NCBI RefSeq assembly: GCF_037996825.1 | Contig: NZ_JBBNAC010000001.1 | Coordinates: 1,116,001 to 1,180,000, forward strand | Direction of reading: 5' to 3' | Source of the DNA: Bdellovibrio sp. BCCA | Lineage (GTDB): Bacteria; Bdellovibrionota; Bdellovibrionia; Bdellovibrionales; Bdellovibrionaceae | Length of the DNA stretch: 64,000 nucleotides | Shown here: positions 5,229-13,620 of the stretch, in pieces | Layout of the letters: each line of letters starts with the position of its first letter | Position numbering within the stretch: the stretch's first letter is position 1 | Program-made: the position numbers and the translations under genes | Notes under the pieces: generated by a model | What the model saw: the letters and a program-made list of their open reading frames with translations, nothing else | Databases searched by the model: none | What the model was told of the DNA's origin: nothing

Positions 5229-5330
5229 TCTGTTGAATATCGACCTTTTAGAGATATACTTTTAGCAGTGTTGTTCTAGGATTTTTTCTAGAGTTTTAAA
5301 AGGTTTAGGCGATCTGCAACTGAGGTGCTA

Positions 5331-5639
5331 GTGACATCTGATAAAAAAACCTACGATTTTCTAATTGCGGGTGTCCCTTACAAACTAAAAACCTCTCATG
5401 ACGATGCCACTGTGCAAGAGCTCGTCGATTTTGTTAATAGCAAAATGAATCAAGCCATGTCCCTTACTAAAAACGGTTCTTTCCAAAACGCTGCAGTTTT
5501 GACAGCGATGAATTTGGCGGAAGAGTTGATCCTTTTAAAACGCAAGGCCCATCGCGAGCTAGAGAAGCTCGAAGAAAAAGCGATGCAGCTTTCACTTGAT
5601 CTAGAAAATTCCAAGAGCAACAAGGTTTTGAACAACTAA
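5331..5639 (+). CDS. zapA: Cell division protein ZapA
   Basis: The product has 102 residues. The GTG at 5331 sits 5 nt after CTGAGG. A second GTG at 5325 would overlap that site and is less likely. The N-terminal half (YDFLIAGVPYKLKTSHDD, then VQELVDFVNSKMNQAM) is the ZapA globular domain. The C-terminal half is a coiled coil (EELILLKRKAHRELEKLEEK) like the one that tetramerises ZapA. ZapA crosslinks FtsZ filaments in the cytoplasmic Z-ring. The next gene is 5-formyl-THF cyclo-ligase, the same order as zapA-ygfA in Enterobacteria, but the 26-nt gap leaves no room for 6S RNA between them. Confidence 0.88.
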   Translation: MTSDKKTYDFLIAGVPYKLKTSHDDATVQELVDFVNSKMNQAMSLTKNGSFQNAAVLTAMNLAEELILLKRKAHRELEKLEEKAMQLSLDLENSKSNKVLNN

Positions 5640-5665: not shown

Positions 5666-6229
5666 TTGTCTGTTTCTTGGAGCTCTAAAAAGGAATGTCG
5701 TTCCTTCTTTAAATCTCTTTGCGCTCAAGAGTTCGCGCAAGGTCTTGTTCAAAATCAACAGCAGCTCAATGCTCAATTGCGAGAGTTTTTAAAATCGCAA
5801 TCGGGCCGCTGGGGAGCCTATCGGGCTTTGCCAGAGGAAGCTCAAGTCGAAGAGGTCTTTCAGATCTCTCACTTGAATTGGGTGTTTCCGCGAATGCGGG
5901 AAGGCCATTTGGAATTCTTTGAAGCACAACATTTTGTGCTAGGTCTTTACGGAGTTCAGGAACCAGCCCCTGACTCTGTCGCGCGAGATCTCAAGGACAT
6001 CCAAGGTCTGCTGATTCCAGGTTTAGTGTTTAATAAGAATGGCAATCGCCTGGGGAAGGGCAAAGGGTTTTATGACAAAACCTTGATGAACTACCAGGGG
6101 ATTAAAGTGGGGATCGGTTTTGATTTTCAAGTTACCAAGGACCCACTGCCTACCGAAGCCCACGATGTCGTGATGGATTATCTAGTCACCGAATCAGGCT
6201 TGGTCGATTGCAGGAAGTATCAGGAGTAA
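5666..6229 (+). CDS. 5-formyltetrahydrofolate cyclo-ligase
   Basis: A 187-residue cytoplasmic enzyme that converts 5-formyl-THF to 5,10-methenyl-THF with ATP. The signature near residues 112-135 is clear: LIPGLVFNKNGNRLGKGKGF followed by YD, matching the family pattern PG.aFd..G.RlGrG.GyYD. The start is TTG at 5666 after CTTGGGGATCCA. There is no better ATG before the conserved N-terminal helix with the substrate-binding Arg/Lys residues (KKECRSFFKSL). It lies 26 nt after zapA and 5 nt before rny, so it is in the same transcript. It corresponds to ygfA/fau of E. coli and fthC of other bacteria. Confidence 0.88.
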   Translation: MSVSWSSKKECRSFFKSLCAQEFAQGLVQNQQQLNAQLREFLKSQSGRWGAYRALPEEAQVEEVFQISHLNWVFPRMREGHLEFFEAQHFVLGLYGVQEPAPDSVARDLKDIQGLLIPGLVFNKNGNRLGKGKGFYDKTLMNYQGIKVGIGFDFQVTKDPLPTEAHDVVMDYLVTESGLVDCRKYQE

Positions 6230-6234
6230 GGATC

Positions 6235-7800
6235 ATGGAGTTAGTTATCACCGCAATTATCGGTGTGTTGTTGGGCGGAGCAGTTGTATTCATCATCAAG
6301 CGTCTTCAAGACGAGAACAAAAAGAAATCAGCACGTATCGAAGCTGAAAGAATCGTAAACAAGGCAAAATCAGAAGCTGCGAAAATCAAAAAAGATTCGG
6401 AAACGAAAGCCAAAGATTTTGAAGCCCGCGCCCGTAAAAACGTGGAAGCGGATATTCACAAGCAAAAGTCCACAGTCAAAAACAAAGAATCTCAACTCGA
6501 GCGTCGTTTGAAAGAGATCGACGATCAATTCAAGCACAAGATGGAAGAAAACGATCGTTATCTGAATTCTTTGAAAGACCGTGAAGAAAAAATCGCGATC
6601 TCTGAAAATCGTATCAAAGATCTAGAGAAAAAAGGCGAAGCTCATATTGGTGAGCTCAAACAAAAATTAGAATCTGTGGCAGCAATGTCGCAAGAAGAAG
6701 CTCGTCGTCAACTTTTGAACGCTCTGGAAGACGAAGCAAAACAAGAGGCCGCAAAAAAGATCGCGCAAATTGAAGAAGAAGCAAACAAAGAAGCCGATAA
6801 AAAAGCAAAACGCATTTTGGCAACAGCACTTTCTCGCTTCGCTTCTGAATACACATCTGAGCGCACGGTGAGTGTTTTGGCCCTTCCGAACGATGAAATG
6901 AAAGGGAAAATCATCGGCCGTGAAGGTCGTAATATTCGTACACTGGAAGCTCTTTGCGGTGTCGACTTGATTGTCGATGACACTCCGGAAGCCGTGGTGA
7001 TTTCAGGATTTGATCCTGTTCGCCGTGAGCTGGCTCGTCGTACAATTGAAAAATTGATGGAAGACGGTCGCGTGCATCCAGCGCGTATCGAAGAAGTTGT
7101 TGAGAAACAACGTAATGAATTGATGAAGTCCATCAAAGAAGAGGGTGAACGTCATGTGATGGAATTGGGTATTCCAAACATGCACCCTGAGTTGGTTAAA
7201 ATTATCGGCGGTTTGAAATACCGTTCTTACCAAGGTCAAAACGCTTTGAACCAAGCTTTGGAAGTTGCACAAATCGCAGGACTTCTTGCTGGTGAAATGG
7301 GTGTGAATGTGAAGCTCGCTCGTCGCGCGGGTCTTTTGCACAATATCGGTAAAGCGATTGATCACACAGCCGAAGGCAGCTATGCCTTTGTCGGCGCTGA
7401 AGCGGCGAAAAAATACAACGAGTCTGAAGACGTCTGCCACGCGATCCGTGCCCATGATGAAGAAGAAAAACCACATTCGATCCTTGCTTGGATCGTGCAT
7501 GCGGCGTTCATCCTTTCTAGCTCTCGTCCAGGCGCTCGTCGTCCACAAATGGATTCTTTCATCCACCGTTTGGAAGATCTTGAAAGCATCGGTAACAGCT
7601 TTGACGGCGTTCTTAAAACATTGGCTCTGCAAGCCGGTAAAGACGTGCGCGTGCTTGTAGAAAGCAGTAAAGTGACAGACGACCAAGCTGTGATGCTATC
7701 TCGTGATATCGCTCGTAAGATCGAAAGAGAGATGCCACAAGCAGGCCAAGTGAAGGTCACTGTGGTTCGTGAAACACGCAGCGTGGAGCATGCACGATGA
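6235..7800 (+). CDS. rny: RNase Y homologue with degenerate HD domain
   Basis: The product has 521 residues, the usual RNase Y length. The ATG follows GGAGTAAGGATC. The domains in order are an N-terminal membrane anchor (residues 3-22), a long charged coiled coil (25-205), a KH domain ([10 protein letters not shown] near 224), an HD-type domain (335-430) and the conserved C-terminal region ending [10 protein letters not shown]. In the family the HD domain holds His, His-Asp, His, His and Asp metal ligands. Here the corresponding positions appear as Gln340 (LNQALEVA), His369-Asn370 ([10 protein letters not shown]), Tyr383 (EGSY), His407-Asp408 (RAHDEEE) and Phe425 (HAAFILSS). All but the leading His of HN and one His of the HH pair are replaced. 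The surrounding sequence is well conserved, so this is not frame damage. I infer loss of phosphodiesterase activity, with a possible scaffold or RNA-binding role. It overlaps tyrS by 4 nt. Confidence 0.9.
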
Positions 7801-9002
7801 TGCGTCCTGAAGAGCAGTTAGAAAGAATCAAGTTCGGTGTCGCTGAGTTTATCAACGACGAGGACATGCTGAAGAAACTAAAAAAAGGTCAGCCATTGAA
7901 TATCAAGCTGGGAGCAGATCCTACGCGTCCTGATATTCATATTGGTCACACAGTCGTGATCAATAAGCTTAGAACGTTTCAAGAACTGGGACATAAAGTT
8001 TATTTCTTGATTGGCGACTTCACAGCGATGATCGGCGACCCTTCAGGAAAAAACACAACTCGTCCGATGCTCACTCGTGAAGAGATCGAAGAAAACGGTC
8101 GTACTTACGCAAAACAGATTTTTAAAATCTTAGATCCCGAAAAAACCGAAATCGTTTACAACTCCTCTTGGATTGGCAAAATGACTCCGGTGGATTTTAT
8201 CCGCATGTCAGCGCAGTACACAGTGGCGCAAATGCTAGAGCGTGATGATTTCACGAAGCGCTATAAGTCAGGCACTCCGATTGGTATTCATGAATTCTTG
8301 TATCCGTTGACTCAAGGTTATGACTCTGTGGCTTTAAAGGCCGATGTCGAGTTGGGCGGTACGGATCAAAAATTCAACTTGCTTGTAGGGCGCGCCATGC
8401 AGTCCGCTTACGGGCAAGAAGCGCAATGTGTTTTAACGATGCCAATTCTTGAAGGCATTGATGGTGTTAATAAAATGTCCAAGTCTTTGGACAATTATAT
8501 TTCCGTTGTTGATACTCCGAAAGATATGTTCGGTAAGACGATGCGTATCTCTGATGATTTGATGTACCGTTGGTACGAACTTTTGACGGACATCACAGCG
8601 AATCAGTTGTCGCAGCTTAAAACGGATGTGGCCGAAAAACGCAAACATCCTCGTGAAGTAAAAGTGAATTTGGCGAAGTTCTTAATCAAACGTTTCCACT
8701 CTGAAACAGCAGCTCAGGCGGCGGAAGATGAGTTTAATCGTATCTTCGTAGAAAAAGGTCTTCCTGACGATGTACCTGAATTTGAAGTCGAAGCCGAAGC
8801 TCAAGTGGGCTTGCCTGCTTTGATGGTGAAGGCGGGGCTTGTCGCTTCGAACGGCGAAGGTTCCAGACTTATCCAGGGTGGCGGCGTGCAAATTGACAGC
8901 GAAAAAATCTCTGATCCAAAACTCAAAATGGATTTAAAATCAGGTCAGAGCTTCGTTGTAAAAGCGGGAAAGAAGAAGTTCGTTAAGATAAAGGTTAAGT
9001 AA
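7797..9002 (+). CDS. tyrS: Tyrosyl-tRNA synthetase
   Basis: The class I aminoacyl-tRNA synthetase for tyrosine, 401 residues. The HIGH motif is at 48-51 (DIHIGHTVV) and KMSKS at 226-230 ([10 protein letters not shown]). The catalytic core includes [14 protein letters not shown], which is the tyrosine/ATP pocket of the TyrZ-like bacterial branch. The C-terminal S4-type RNA-binding domain (residues 335-400) contains [16 protein letters not shown]. The start overlaps the rny stop as ATGA (7797-7800). A second ATG directly follows at 7800 and is in the other frame, so 7797 is used. Translational coupling with rny is likely. Confidence 0.96.
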
Positions 9003-9538
9003 TGAAAATTAAATTTCTTCCGCAAAATCTTGAAGTCGAGGCGACTCCGGATAAGAGTCTCCTGCAAATTGCGACGGAAAATCATTTGGAAATCCGCTCG
9101 ATCTGCAAAGGAGTTCCTTCCTGTGCAGAATGCCGTGTGCGTATTGCGGAAGGCGAATCAAATATTCTTCCGCCGACGAAAGCGGAGTTGAGCCTTATCG
9201 GTACGAATTATTTTATCGATGGTAGAAGGCTTAGCTGCCAAGTGCGCTGCTTTGGCAACGTGACAGTTGATTTGACGGAACAAGTGGAGCGCGCAGAAAA
9301 CCAAACGAAGAAGATTCGTGGTTTCCGTACGAACAAACAAGTTGAGTCGAAGGCTGTGAACGACACAATGCTTTTAGCTGAAAAAATTGAAGGCAGTGGT
9401 GGCGATAATCGACCAAGTGGGGGACAACAAAACCCGAAAGCTGAAGCTAACGAGGGACATCGCCAGCATCAACATCAGCATCAAAAATCTCATCAACAAG
9501 GTTCAAGATCCGAAGCATCGAAAAAAGATAAGAAGTAG
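9002..9538 (+). CDS. 2Fe-2S ferredoxin-domain protein with disordered tail
   Basis: The product has 178 residues and overlaps the tyrS stop by one base (TAATG). Residues 1-95 are a plant-type [2Fe-2S] ferredoxin fold with Cys35-x5-Cys41-x2-Cys44 and Cys79 (CKGVPSCAEC, LSCQVRCFG). These are the four cluster ligands, and Cys83 is extra. It is therefore a small cytoplasmic electron carrier. From about residue 100 the chain becomes low-complexity, rich in Lys, Gln, Gly and His (GHRQHQHQHQKSHQQG), and is probably disordered. The His-rich part could bind metals, but nothing shows this. The redox partner is unknown, and its place behind tyrS gives no hint. Confidence 0.87.
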   Translation: MKIKFLPQNLEVEATPDKSLLQIATENHLEIRSICKGVPSCAECRVRIAEGESNILPPTKAELSLIGTNYFIDGRRLSCQVRCFGNVTVDLTEQVERAENQTKKIRGFRTNKQVESKAVNDTMLLAEKIEGSGGDNRPSGGQQNPKAEANEGHRQHQHQHQKSHQQGSRSEASKKDKK

Positions 9539-10927: not shown

Positions 10928-12118
10928 CTAGCGTAGAGAATTCTTCAGGATTTCCACCGCACGCAGAAGTTCTTCTTCCGTTGTCCAGCGGCCGACGCTG
11001 ATTCTTAAAGAACACTGCACCTCATCCACACTGATTCCAAGCCCCGTCAAAACGTGACTGATCACCATAGCGCCAGTGCCACAGGCTGAGCCCGTGCTCA
11101 CACCGATTTTTTGTAAGCGAGGTAAAATCTGTTCAGTTTTAAAACCAGGAAGAGTGATGTTGAGATTGTTTGGAGCGCGCTCCGTAGGATGACCATTCAA
11201 ACGAACTCCAGGAATAGCATCTTGCAATTTCGTCCATAAAAATTCACGAAGGTTTGTAAGCTTCGCAAATTCCTCTGGAAGATTTTGTTCGCAAATTTCA
11301 GCCGCCACACCAAAGCCCACGATCGCAGGAACATTTAAAGTTCCAGAGCGAAGCCCGCGTTCTTGGCCGCCACCATAGATGAGTGGATTGAGTTGAACTT
11401 TGGGATCTTTAGAGCGAATGAAAAGAGCGCCGACACCTTTCGGTCCGTAAATTTTGTGAGCTGAAAAAGACATCAGATCAATTCCCATCTCTGTGGCATC
11501 TACCGGAATTTTTCCCGCAGCTTGAGTCGCATCCGTGTGCAAATAAATTCTATGTTCTTTTGCCAGGCGCGCGATCTCAGGGATCGGATTGATCGTGCCG
11601 ATTTCGTTATTCACCCAAATAAAACTCATGAGTTTTGTGTGAGGCTTGATTGCTTTACGAATCGTTTCAATTTCTACTTGGCCAAATGAATTCACAGGAA
11701 GGAAATCGACTTCGACACCCATTTTTTGAGCCGCGGCCATCGCTTTCATGATGGAACTGTGTTCAACAGTGCTTGTGATAAAGTGAATAGGCTCGTGGGG
11801 ATTTTCTTCGCGCAGTTTTGAAATCAAACCGAAGATAACCCAATTGTTGGATTCCGTAGCGCCACCAGTGAAAATGATTTCAGTGGATTTTGCGCCAATC
11901 AAAGAAGCGACTTGAGCGCGCGCTTTGGTCACGGCATTTTCAGCAAGCCAACCCCAATGATGTCCGGCACTGGCAGGATTTCCAAAGAATTCTTTGAAAT
12001 AAGGTTCCATCGCTTGAAAAACTTTTGGATCCACGGGAGTCGTGGCGTTGTAGTCGAGATAGATGCCTTTGTCTTGTTGCACTTTAGTGTCCATCGGGCG
12101 CTCAGAGTTTAAGTCCAT
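10928..12118 (-). CDS. iscS: Cysteine desulfurase (IscS/NifS family)
   Basis: A 396-residue PLP enzyme that takes sulfur from cysteine for Fe-S clusters and tRNA thiolation. The PLP lysine is Lys222 (FSAHKIYGPKG). The cofactor contacts HTDATQAAG and the persulfide Cys346 on the mobile loop (STGSACGTGA) are present. The N-terminal IYLDYNATTPVD is the family signature. The first ATG (12118) is used. An internal ATG 8 codons later (MDTKVQQ) is also possible, and neither has a strong ribosome site. Symbol given by family. A NifS-like role cannot be excluded. Confidence 0.92.
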   Translation of the reverse strand: MDLNSERPMDTKVQQDKGIYLDYNATTPVDPKVFQAMEPYFKEFFGNPASAGHHWGWLAENAVTKARAQVASLIGAKSTEIIFTGGATESNNWVIFGLISKLREENPHEPIHFITSTVEHSSIMKAMAAAQKMGVEVDFLPVNSFGQVEIETIRKAIKPHTKLMSFIWVNNEIGTINPIPEIARLAKEHRIYLHTDATQAAGKIPVDATEMGIDLMSFSAHKIYGPKGVGALFIRSKDPKVQLNPLIYGGGQERGLRSGTLNVPAIVGFGVAAEICEQNLPEEFAKLTNLREFLWTKLQDAIPGVRLNGHPTERAPNNLNITLPGFKTEQILPRLQKIGVSTGSACGTGAMVISHVLTGLGISVDEVQCSLRISVGRWTTEEELLRAVEILKNSLR

Positions 12119-12174: not shown

Positions 12175-13620
12175 TTAAGCTGTTACTTTGGCGCGTTCCT
12201 TTTCCTCATATTCCTGGATTTTTTCATTGAGGAAGTTCTGGGCGCGGTACTTATCGAGGTCCTTGATGTCGCCCTTTAAAATGTGAAGCTGAGAAATTCC
12301 CTGGCTTTGCAGGCGCTCTTTTTGAGTATGATAAAAAACACCTCCCCGAGGAGTATACAGAACGTACTTATTGTTCCTGGGGAGATGTATATAAACATTA
12401 AATTCCACGGCCACGTCACCTGTGAGTTCGTCGACATGGATCGACGCCATTTCTTCGGCGGCGGAGTCTCCGCAATTTGACTTGATGTCGGCGCGGGGAA
12501 AAAAAGCCATCGCGACTTCGTTGCCGTTGTGAATGGATTTTCTTAAAAACTCTGCGTATTGCAACGCCCAGTCTTCAAAAGGCACTTCGCGAATTTCCAA
12601 ATCCATCGAGTCACCATCGCGAATGTCCTCGCCGTTATTTCTTAAAAAACGAAACAGACGTTCGCGGATTTTTCCAATGAACTCGGCATCCAAAGATTTG
12701 TCTTTTCCCATGGCGGTCACGAGGTAGCCTGAGAAACGACTGGATTCAATGACGATGCAGGAAACATTAGTGGAGGCTTCAATTCCTTGCGCGGTTTCAG
12801 ACGTCGTCTTGAGGCAAGAGTTTTCTAGAGCCTCTTTGGTTCCGCGCAAAATAATCGAATCTTTTTTTGTCGCTTGAGGATCATTTTCAACTTGTTCTGG
12901 AGTCAGGCGATTCTTTTTGTGCGTATTTGTTTCCGGCAGAGGCGCCCAACCAGGAAGATTTCCTTGGGGTTTTTGCGGAGTTGATGAGAGCGGCGTTGTC
13001 GCATCTGTATCAAACATCCGCGAATGCAAAGTGCCAGCACCGATGCCGTGTCCAACAGGACCTGAATTGTTCGTGCTTGTTCCGGGAATCATTCCGAGTC
13101 CTTGAGCATCGTCACTAAACATTTGCGCCAACACACTTTGCGCATTTTGTGCGGAAAATCCGCCTTCGCCTTTAATCGCAATAACACTGGCTTCTTCAGA
13201 AGAAAGACCCGTACGCATTTGCTGTGGAGAAACTCCCTTGGTCTGCAAATCCTTGTAGTATTTATTCACCGTTCTTTCAACAGCCGGACCCGTGACAGGG
13301 GGATACAGCAAATATTCCGTCGCGCAGGTGCTGAGCAAATTGTAAGAAGCCGCCGAATTTTCTTCGGCAAAAGCAATCACGCAAACGGGAAAGGCTTGGG
13401 TTAAAATTTTCGGAAGATTGCGCACTTTGCGGTTGGGATGATCAATGCTCACCATCACAAACTGCGGCTGTTCTTGAACCAAAAAAATCAAAGCCTCTTT
13501 GAGATTTGTCGTGGCTTTAACTTTCCATTCCCGATTTCTCAGAAACCCCTCAACAGCTCCGAGGCCGCCGGGTTGAGACTTAATAATAAGCAGCGATTTT
13601 TTAATAGTCTCTTGATTCAT
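12175..13620 (-). CDS. Receiver-like domain protein of unknown function
   Basis: The product has 481 residues and no signal peptide. Residues 8-125 look like a divergent response-regulator receiver. There is a strand LLIIKSQPGG, a second strand VMVSIDHPNRK that ends in a candidate phospho-Asp, then VCVIAFAEE and EYLLYPPV. The middle (150-260) is low-complexity with many Ser, Thr, Gly, Pro and Asn residues. The C-terminal 200 residues (LKTTSETAQGIEASTNV to the end) form a second alpha/beta domain I do not recognise. It contains hydrophobic strands such as VSCIVIESSRFSGYLVTAMG. The inverted repeat ACGGTT-tgtt-AACCGT (13634-13649) lies just upstream of the start and could be an operator. The gene diverges from nrdJ. 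Confidence 0.75.
   Translation of the reverse strand: MNQETIKKSLLIIKSQPGGLGAVEGFLRNREWKVKATTNLKEALIFLVQEQPQFVMVSIDHPNRKVRNLPKILTQAFPVCVIAFAEENSAASYNLLSTCATEYLLYPPVTGPAVERTVNKYYKDLQTKGVSPQQMRTGLSSEEASVIAIKGEGGFSAQNAQSVLAQMFSDDAQGLGMIPGTSTNNSGPVGHGIGAGTLHSRMFDTDATTPLSSTPQKPQGNLPGWAPLPETNTHKKNRLTPEQVENDPQATKKDSIILRGTKEALENSCLKTTSETAQGIEASTNVSCIVIESSRFSGYLVTAMGKDKSLDAEFIGKIRERLFRFLRNNGEDIRDGDSMDLEIREVPFEDWALQYAEFLRKSIHNGNEVAMAFFPRADIKSNCGDSAAEEMASIHVDELTGDVAVEFNVYIHLPRNNKYVLYTPRGGVFYHTQKERLQSQGISQLHILKGDIKDLDKYRAQNFLNEKIQEYEEKERAKVTA

Follow-up and report, generated by a model that had tools for sequence, protein, structure and literature searches.

The rny locus and the domains of copy A

The window analysed here is a stretch of 64,000 nucleotides from Bdellovibrio sp. 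BCCA (NZ_JBBNAC010000001.1, positions 1,116,001 to 1,180,000), and the gene under study is a homologue of the RNase Y gene rny on its forward strand, hereafter copy A. The open reading frame (ORF) starts with ATG downstream of an AGGAG motif, and its product scores 608.8 bits against the NCBIfam model TIGR03319 (cut-off 454.35) and contains the Pfam domains RNase_Y_N, KH_1 and HD. The metal-binding site of its HD domain is ruined, and the genome encodes one further homologue, copy B, in which the HD site is complete and the GxxG loop of the KH domain is destroyed. As read from the sequences, this division of the two functional sites between the copies is solid. The features of copy A, in window coordinates, are the following:

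6235-7800, +: rny copy A, RNase Y paralogue with intact KH and ruined HD site, 521 amino acids (ORF, TIGR03319, Pfam, alignment)
6235-6306, +: N-terminal membrane anchor helix, residues 1-24, bounds approximate (Pfam RNase_Y_N match at residues 4-206; hydrophobic by inspection)
6307-6849, +: coiled coil, residues 25-205, equal in length to that of copy B
6856-7074, +: KH domain, residues ~208-280 (Pfam KH_1, 34.9 bits, residues 216-272)
6916-6927, +: intact GREG loop of the KH domain, residues 228-231
7240-7530, +: HD domain without metal site, residues ~336-432 (Pfam HD, 48.8 bits, residues 342-424; predicted local distance difference test (pLDDT) score ~90)
7252-7254, +: Gln340, replacing an HD ligand His (alignment)
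7339-7344, +: His369-Asn370, replacing the His-Asp motif; His kept, Asn370 at 7342-7344 (alignment)
7381-7383, +: Tyr383, replacing His (alignment)
7453-7458, +: His407-Asp408, replacing His-His; His407 kept, Asp408 at 7456-7458 (alignment)
7507-7509, +: Phe425, replacing the last HD ligand Asp, which all A copies of the order lack, 106/106 (alignment)
7531-7797, +: C-terminal region, residues ~433-521, whose counterpart was proposed as a second dimer contact in Bacillus subtilis RNase Y (PMC9775385)

The first-pass annotation, made from the window alone, had described a retained anchor, coiled coil, KH domain and typical C-terminus, all of which were recovered by Pfam and in an AlphaFold2 model; the order of anchor, coiled coil, KH, HD and C-terminal region is common to A and B, both of which were modelled. 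The HD region of copy A reached a pLDDT of ~90 (alignment of 48 sequences), which argues that its fold is retained. Foldseek returned matches of moderate significance to HD hydrolases (2pq7, 3ccg, YqeK) and to KH proteins, and a search of PDB sequences gave no match, no RNase Y being found by sequence among the solved structures. Copy A is an RNase Y by descent, as it exceeds the TIGR03319 cut-off and is nested among canonical RNase Y in the phylogenetic tree.

Loss of the HD metal site in copy A

The canonical HD site of RNase Y comprises seven ligands in the pattern H-HD-H-HH-D. Five of these are replaced in copy A, where H369 and H407 remain, while copy B possesses all seven. Alignment reproduced the residues previously listed for copy A (Gln340, His-Asn370, Tyr383, His-Asp408 and Phe425); the accompanying statement that all ligand sites were lost goes too far, as two of the seven ligands survive. 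Every A sequence read in the genus shows the same replacements, the last site being either Phe or Tyr. Relocation of the ligands within copy A was ruled out, as its HD domain aligns unshifted to canonical relatives and keeps the neighbouring motif residues. The 40 single-copy relatives of the phylum all read H-HD-H-HH-D. A chance pattern, a pseudogene and a sequencing error were ruled out by the genus-wide conservation and by the ratio of nonsynonymous to synonymous substitution rates (dN/dS).

Single mutations in the HD motif nearly abolish cleavage by RNase Y (PMC10303841), and the ligand losses strongly suggest that copy A lacks nuclease activity in the window's genus. Non-catalysis is less sure for A copies that lack only the last Asp, in which some activity may persist. 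The earlier proposal that a non-catalytic protein is selected for gains credence from the KH loop, both glycines of which are kept in 108/108 A copies, from an HD dN/dS of ~0.04 within the genus and from the well-modelled HD fold, all of which point to maintenance rather than decay.

Copy B and other ribonucleases of the genome

Copy B (C1:2046299-2047846; L002:1486-3069) encodes 527 amino acids and possesses a complete set of HD ligands (H342, H371-D372, H385, H409-H410, D427), from which it is predicted to be an active nuclease. Its KH loop reads DANG, compared to GREG in copy A, so that a GxxG loop with a basic residue is present in A and not in B, and its KH_1 score (13.6 bits) lies under the gathering score of 21.5. 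Its close named relatives, at 91 and 87% identity, carry the name Bdellovibrio sp. Against TIGR03319 copy B scores 426.3 bits, under the 454.35 cut-off, and still falls inside the RNase Y tree. The NCBIfam rule thus gives the name "ribonuclease Y" to the predicted dead copy while the predicted active copy misses the cut-off, and automatic annotation may name the wrong gene as RNase Y. Regarding the companion genes raised by the first-pass annotation (a second rny, rne or rnj), the genome encodes copy B as a second rny as well as RNase E/G, and no RNase J was found above the cut-off.

Distribution of the two copies across the phylum

TIGR03319 was searched at three levels, with 66 genomes for the family, 141 for the order and 293 for the phylum, and the B profile was run on 47 f9 genomes, on another 28 from the order and on 15 selected ones. 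Full-length sequences were scored as KH-positive when they contained G[RK]xG and as HD-positive when all seven ligands were present. Two copies were found in families f1 and f7 and in most of f9, and one elsewhere, except in family f16 and for genes broken by contig ends or frameshifts. All 84 genomes of f1, f7 and f9 with both full-length copies paired a KH-positive, HD-negative protein with a KH-negative, HD-positive one (84/84), the reciprocal loss and co-occurrence expected of a paralogue complex, with a single well-assembled genome (G035) as an A-only exception. All single-copy genomes of the phylum were positive for both sites (40/40). Outside the phylum, RNase Y loci were canonical at both sites (67/67), a figure skewed in favour of intact HD by one peptide pattern of the scan that falls in that site, and hence more informative for KH.

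Nearly every genome of the two-copy families yielded copy A. Among the B copies of the order, the HD site was kept in 88/88 and G[RK]xG was present in 0/88; six of the 88 keep both glycines with no basic residue between them (GPDG, GADG, GAGG, GPNG, GENG). The A-only genomes of the set had mostly not been fetched for the B search, or had a B gene truncated where a contig stops (G039, G056, G077).

Two other forms of the gene were encountered. In family f25, three single-copy RNase Y-like frames (L265, L266, L267) span ~350-390 amino acids, with profile matches beginning at 177-194 and with canonical KH loop and HD ligands; these proteins may lack the long coiled coil. The only f8 genome (G090, L167) has RNase Y in two frames (profile positions 12-356 and 358-527), from a frameshift or an assembly error.

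Constraint on the KH and HD domains

Domain identities were compared over identical genome pairs for A and B. KH identity was higher in A than in B in f1 (0.87 and 0.53, respectively), f7 (0.93 and 0.65) and f9 (0.74 and 0.43), whereas HD identity was higher in B than in A (0.74 and 0.64 in f1; 0.73 and 0.54 in f9), with a weak reversal in f7 (0.81 and 0.79). Within the genus, dN/dS was 0.015 (KH) and 0.042 (HD) for A, and 0.049 (KH) and 0.025 (HD) for B, values that are rough as dS is near saturation. Judged by these ratios, both copies are under strong purifying selection, and the KH domain of A is the slowest-evolving part of either protein.

Ancestry of the copies and order of the losses

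In a 79-row IQ-TREE phylogeny, A formed one clade (100/99) within the order's single-copy canonical enzymes, and B formed one clade (100/100) on a long branch. B was placed inside the order's clade in a tree of the linker, HD and C-terminal columns without the ligand columns. Copy A lies in the arrangement zapA - 5-formyltetrahydrofolate cyclo-ligase - rny - tyrS - ferredoxin, which is common to single-copy relatives. Its locus is the ancestral one and B lies elsewhere; zapA, the cyclo-ligase, tyrS and the ferredoxin gene were sought beside B and none was found. The neighbours in the window are:

5325-5639, +: zapA, ancestral neighbour (Pfam ZapA; synteny)
5666-6229, +: 5-formyltetrahydrofolate cyclo-ligase, ancestral neighbour (Pfam; synteny)
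7797-9002, +: tyrS, ancestral neighbour (Pfam; synteny)
9002-9538, +: 2Fe-2S ferredoxin-like gene, neighbour in most relatives of the order (Pfam; synteny)

Further downstream, a 481-amino-acid ORF without a Pfam match at E 0.001 (12175-13620, minus strand) adjoins a class-V aminotransferase, cysteine desulfurase-like (10928-12118).

Ligand history was mapped on a phylogeny that combined 106 A copies with 19 single-copy sequences. It shows a single loss of the last HD Asp, in the ancestor shared by all A copies. Four further ligands, the Asp of the His-Asp motif and the first, third and fifth His, each underwent at least 11-12 state changes; the other two His were rarely changed. The last Asp therefore went first, the rest of the site eroding in parallel, as would be predicted after release from catalysis. 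This history runs counter to the earlier view that the sites were lost all together, four of them having been lost independently 11-12 times each.

A second, apparently independent duplication in family f16

Two genomes of family f16, which belongs to another class of the phylum, also possess two RNase Y copies, A-like (L235, L236) and B-like (L269, L270). The copy at the ancestral locus has lost HD ligands (HHDSHEN, HHDHHSN); the second copy combines a complete HD site with a normal KH loop (GKSG, GRMG). In both trees the f16 A copies fell outside the main A clade and the f16 B copies joined B on long branches; a clade of f16 copies was not rejected (approximately unbiased (AU) test, p = 0.16). 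A 4-residue coil insertion common to the A and B copies of Bdellovibrionales is absent from both f16 copies.

As the f16 clade was not rejected and the insertion is missing from both copies, transfer of f16 B from Bdellovibrionales is disfavoured, and f16 apparently represents an independent duplication in which catalytic loss in the native copy was taken and KH loss in the other was not. It is not a full replicate of the complementary split: a strict GREG rule would suggest one and is misleading, as the f16 B loops are normal.

A proposed hetero-oligomeric RNase Y and its alternatives

The proposed model is that a duplication of RNase Y in Bdellovibrionales left each copy with one of the two functional sites. 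The sequences show that copy A has lost the metal-binding HD site and retains the membrane anchor, the coiled coil, the KH domain and the C-terminal region, and that copy B has lost the KH loop and retains the anchor, a coil of the same length, the C-terminal region and the full HD site. The two would assemble at the membrane as a hetero-dimer or a higher mixed oligomer, in which A would bind and position RNA and might do the same for other RNA-decay proteins; cleavage would fall to B. The enzyme is probably a subfunctionalised hetero-oligomeric RNase Y, with A providing KH domain, anchor and scaffold and B providing catalysis. That Bdellovibrionales possess an obligate hetero-oligomeric RNase Y acting in trans (KH of A, HD of B), whose HD-loss half arose again in a different class of the phylum, is also fairly likely. 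The RNA-anchoring or scaffold role suggested by the first-pass annotation is compatible with A's share of such a pair and is incomplete without copy B.

Physical joining of A and B is the most uncertain element. We infer a hetero-oligomer because RNase Y functions as a dimer or a larger assembly joined by its coiled coil; the B. subtilis enzyme dimerises through parallel coils, and a further contact is predicted for its C-terminal region (PMC9775385). Moreover, the two lesions mirror each other and always occur as a pair, which is most simply explained by both sites working in a single assembly. Measured between fixed anchors, the coil is equally long in A and B in 84 of the 86 two-copy genomes (169 amino acids in the order, 165 in f16), even though the coils have strongly diverged in sequence. 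This equality is consistent with A-B pairing and is not decisive, as B-B dimers could also give it. Opposite coil charge was rejected as proof of a heterodimer, being present in f1 (A +5, B -10) and absent in f9 and f16.

Several observations weigh against an A-B assembly. Single-copy enzymes likewise have a conserved coil length, so that its equality is not specific to A-B, and a crude coil charge score favoured A-A over A-B, with no clear A-B preference. Among the A copies of the order, 38/106 retain six of the seven ligands, only the last Asp being lost. Genome G035 (the window's family, 99% complete, 10 contigs) has an A copy (L017, ligands HHDHHHN), and no B was found in this genome, reflecting either an assembly gap or a lineage living with A alone; G118 is a weaker exception of the same kind. 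In other bacteria, most paralogues of Escherichia coli homomers became separate homomers (PMC7480870), and an inactive RNase Y acts as a dominant negative when overproduced in B. subtilis (PMC10303841).

A less likely possibility is that A and B form separate homo-oligomers with separate jobs, A as a KH-based membrane RNA-binding protein or scaffold and B as an RNase Y with other RNA contacts. That would be the usual fate of E. coli homomer paralogues and would suit A's coil, which scores well as a homodimer; the linker helices of B are also more basic than those of A (+2.4 and -0.2, respectively, in f1; +6.4 and -0.8 in f9) and could stand in for KH contacts. However, separate homomers leave unexplained the reciprocity and constant co-occurrence of the lesions and the absence of any working B KH loop in the order.

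Improbable, in turn, is a regulatory or dominant-negative A subunit that tunes B through mixed oligomers or RNA competition without being its required RNA-binding partner. The B. subtilis precedent, explained there by mixed oligomers, lends it some plausibility, but B, without a KH loop, would need that of A, and the slow evolution of A's KH domain also speaks against this reading. The repeated ligand losses across the A clade might suggest a decaying relic becoming a pseudogene, which is hardly credible given A's near-universal presence in the two-copy families, its dN/dS far below 1 in all domains, its intact frame and its invariant KH loop.

Significance and comparison with known systems

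RNase Y initiates mRNA decay in many bacteria, and how KH and HD cooperate within or between dimer subunits is not settled. The natural reciprocal knock-outs described here suggest that an assembly may need no more than a single functional KH and a single functional HD domain, and they let the two domains be studied apart. When obligate predators switch to growing independently, the RNA-decay genes rhlB and pcnB are hit repeatedly (PMC11323537), and the A/B pair may for this reason also bear on predator biology. No published account of a split RNase Y or of a Bdellovibrio RNase Y pair was found in a literature search limited largely to papers free of subscription.

Homo-oligomeric RNase Y (rny/ymdA, e.g. 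of B. subtilis) has the same domain order as A and B, and copy A is its ortholog by descent and by synteny among the phylum's single-copy enzymes. In archaeal tRNA splicing endonuclease, a duplicated homomeric RNase likewise divides catalytic and structural roles between paralogues, although its fold and substrate differ and it has no KH/HD split. The Firmicutes RNases J1 and J2 are, like A and B, paralogous ribonuclease subunits that diverged in the active site, and they interact (PMC7864078); in Staphylococcus epidermidis, J1 holds two metals and J2 one (PMC7864078). Unlike A and B, they have an unrelated metallo-beta-lactamase fold, J2 is still partly active, and the pair has not reciprocally lost an RNA-binding and a catalytic site. 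A laboratory inactive RNase Y (H368A/D369A) resembles copy A in being HD-dead, otherwise complete and thought to enter mixed oligomers (PMC10303841). It is engineered and inhibitory, whereas copy A is natural, ancient and paired with a KH-less, predicted active copy. The working KH and HD sites, which lie on one gene in RNase Y of the B. subtilis type, are found on two genes in Bdellovibrionales.
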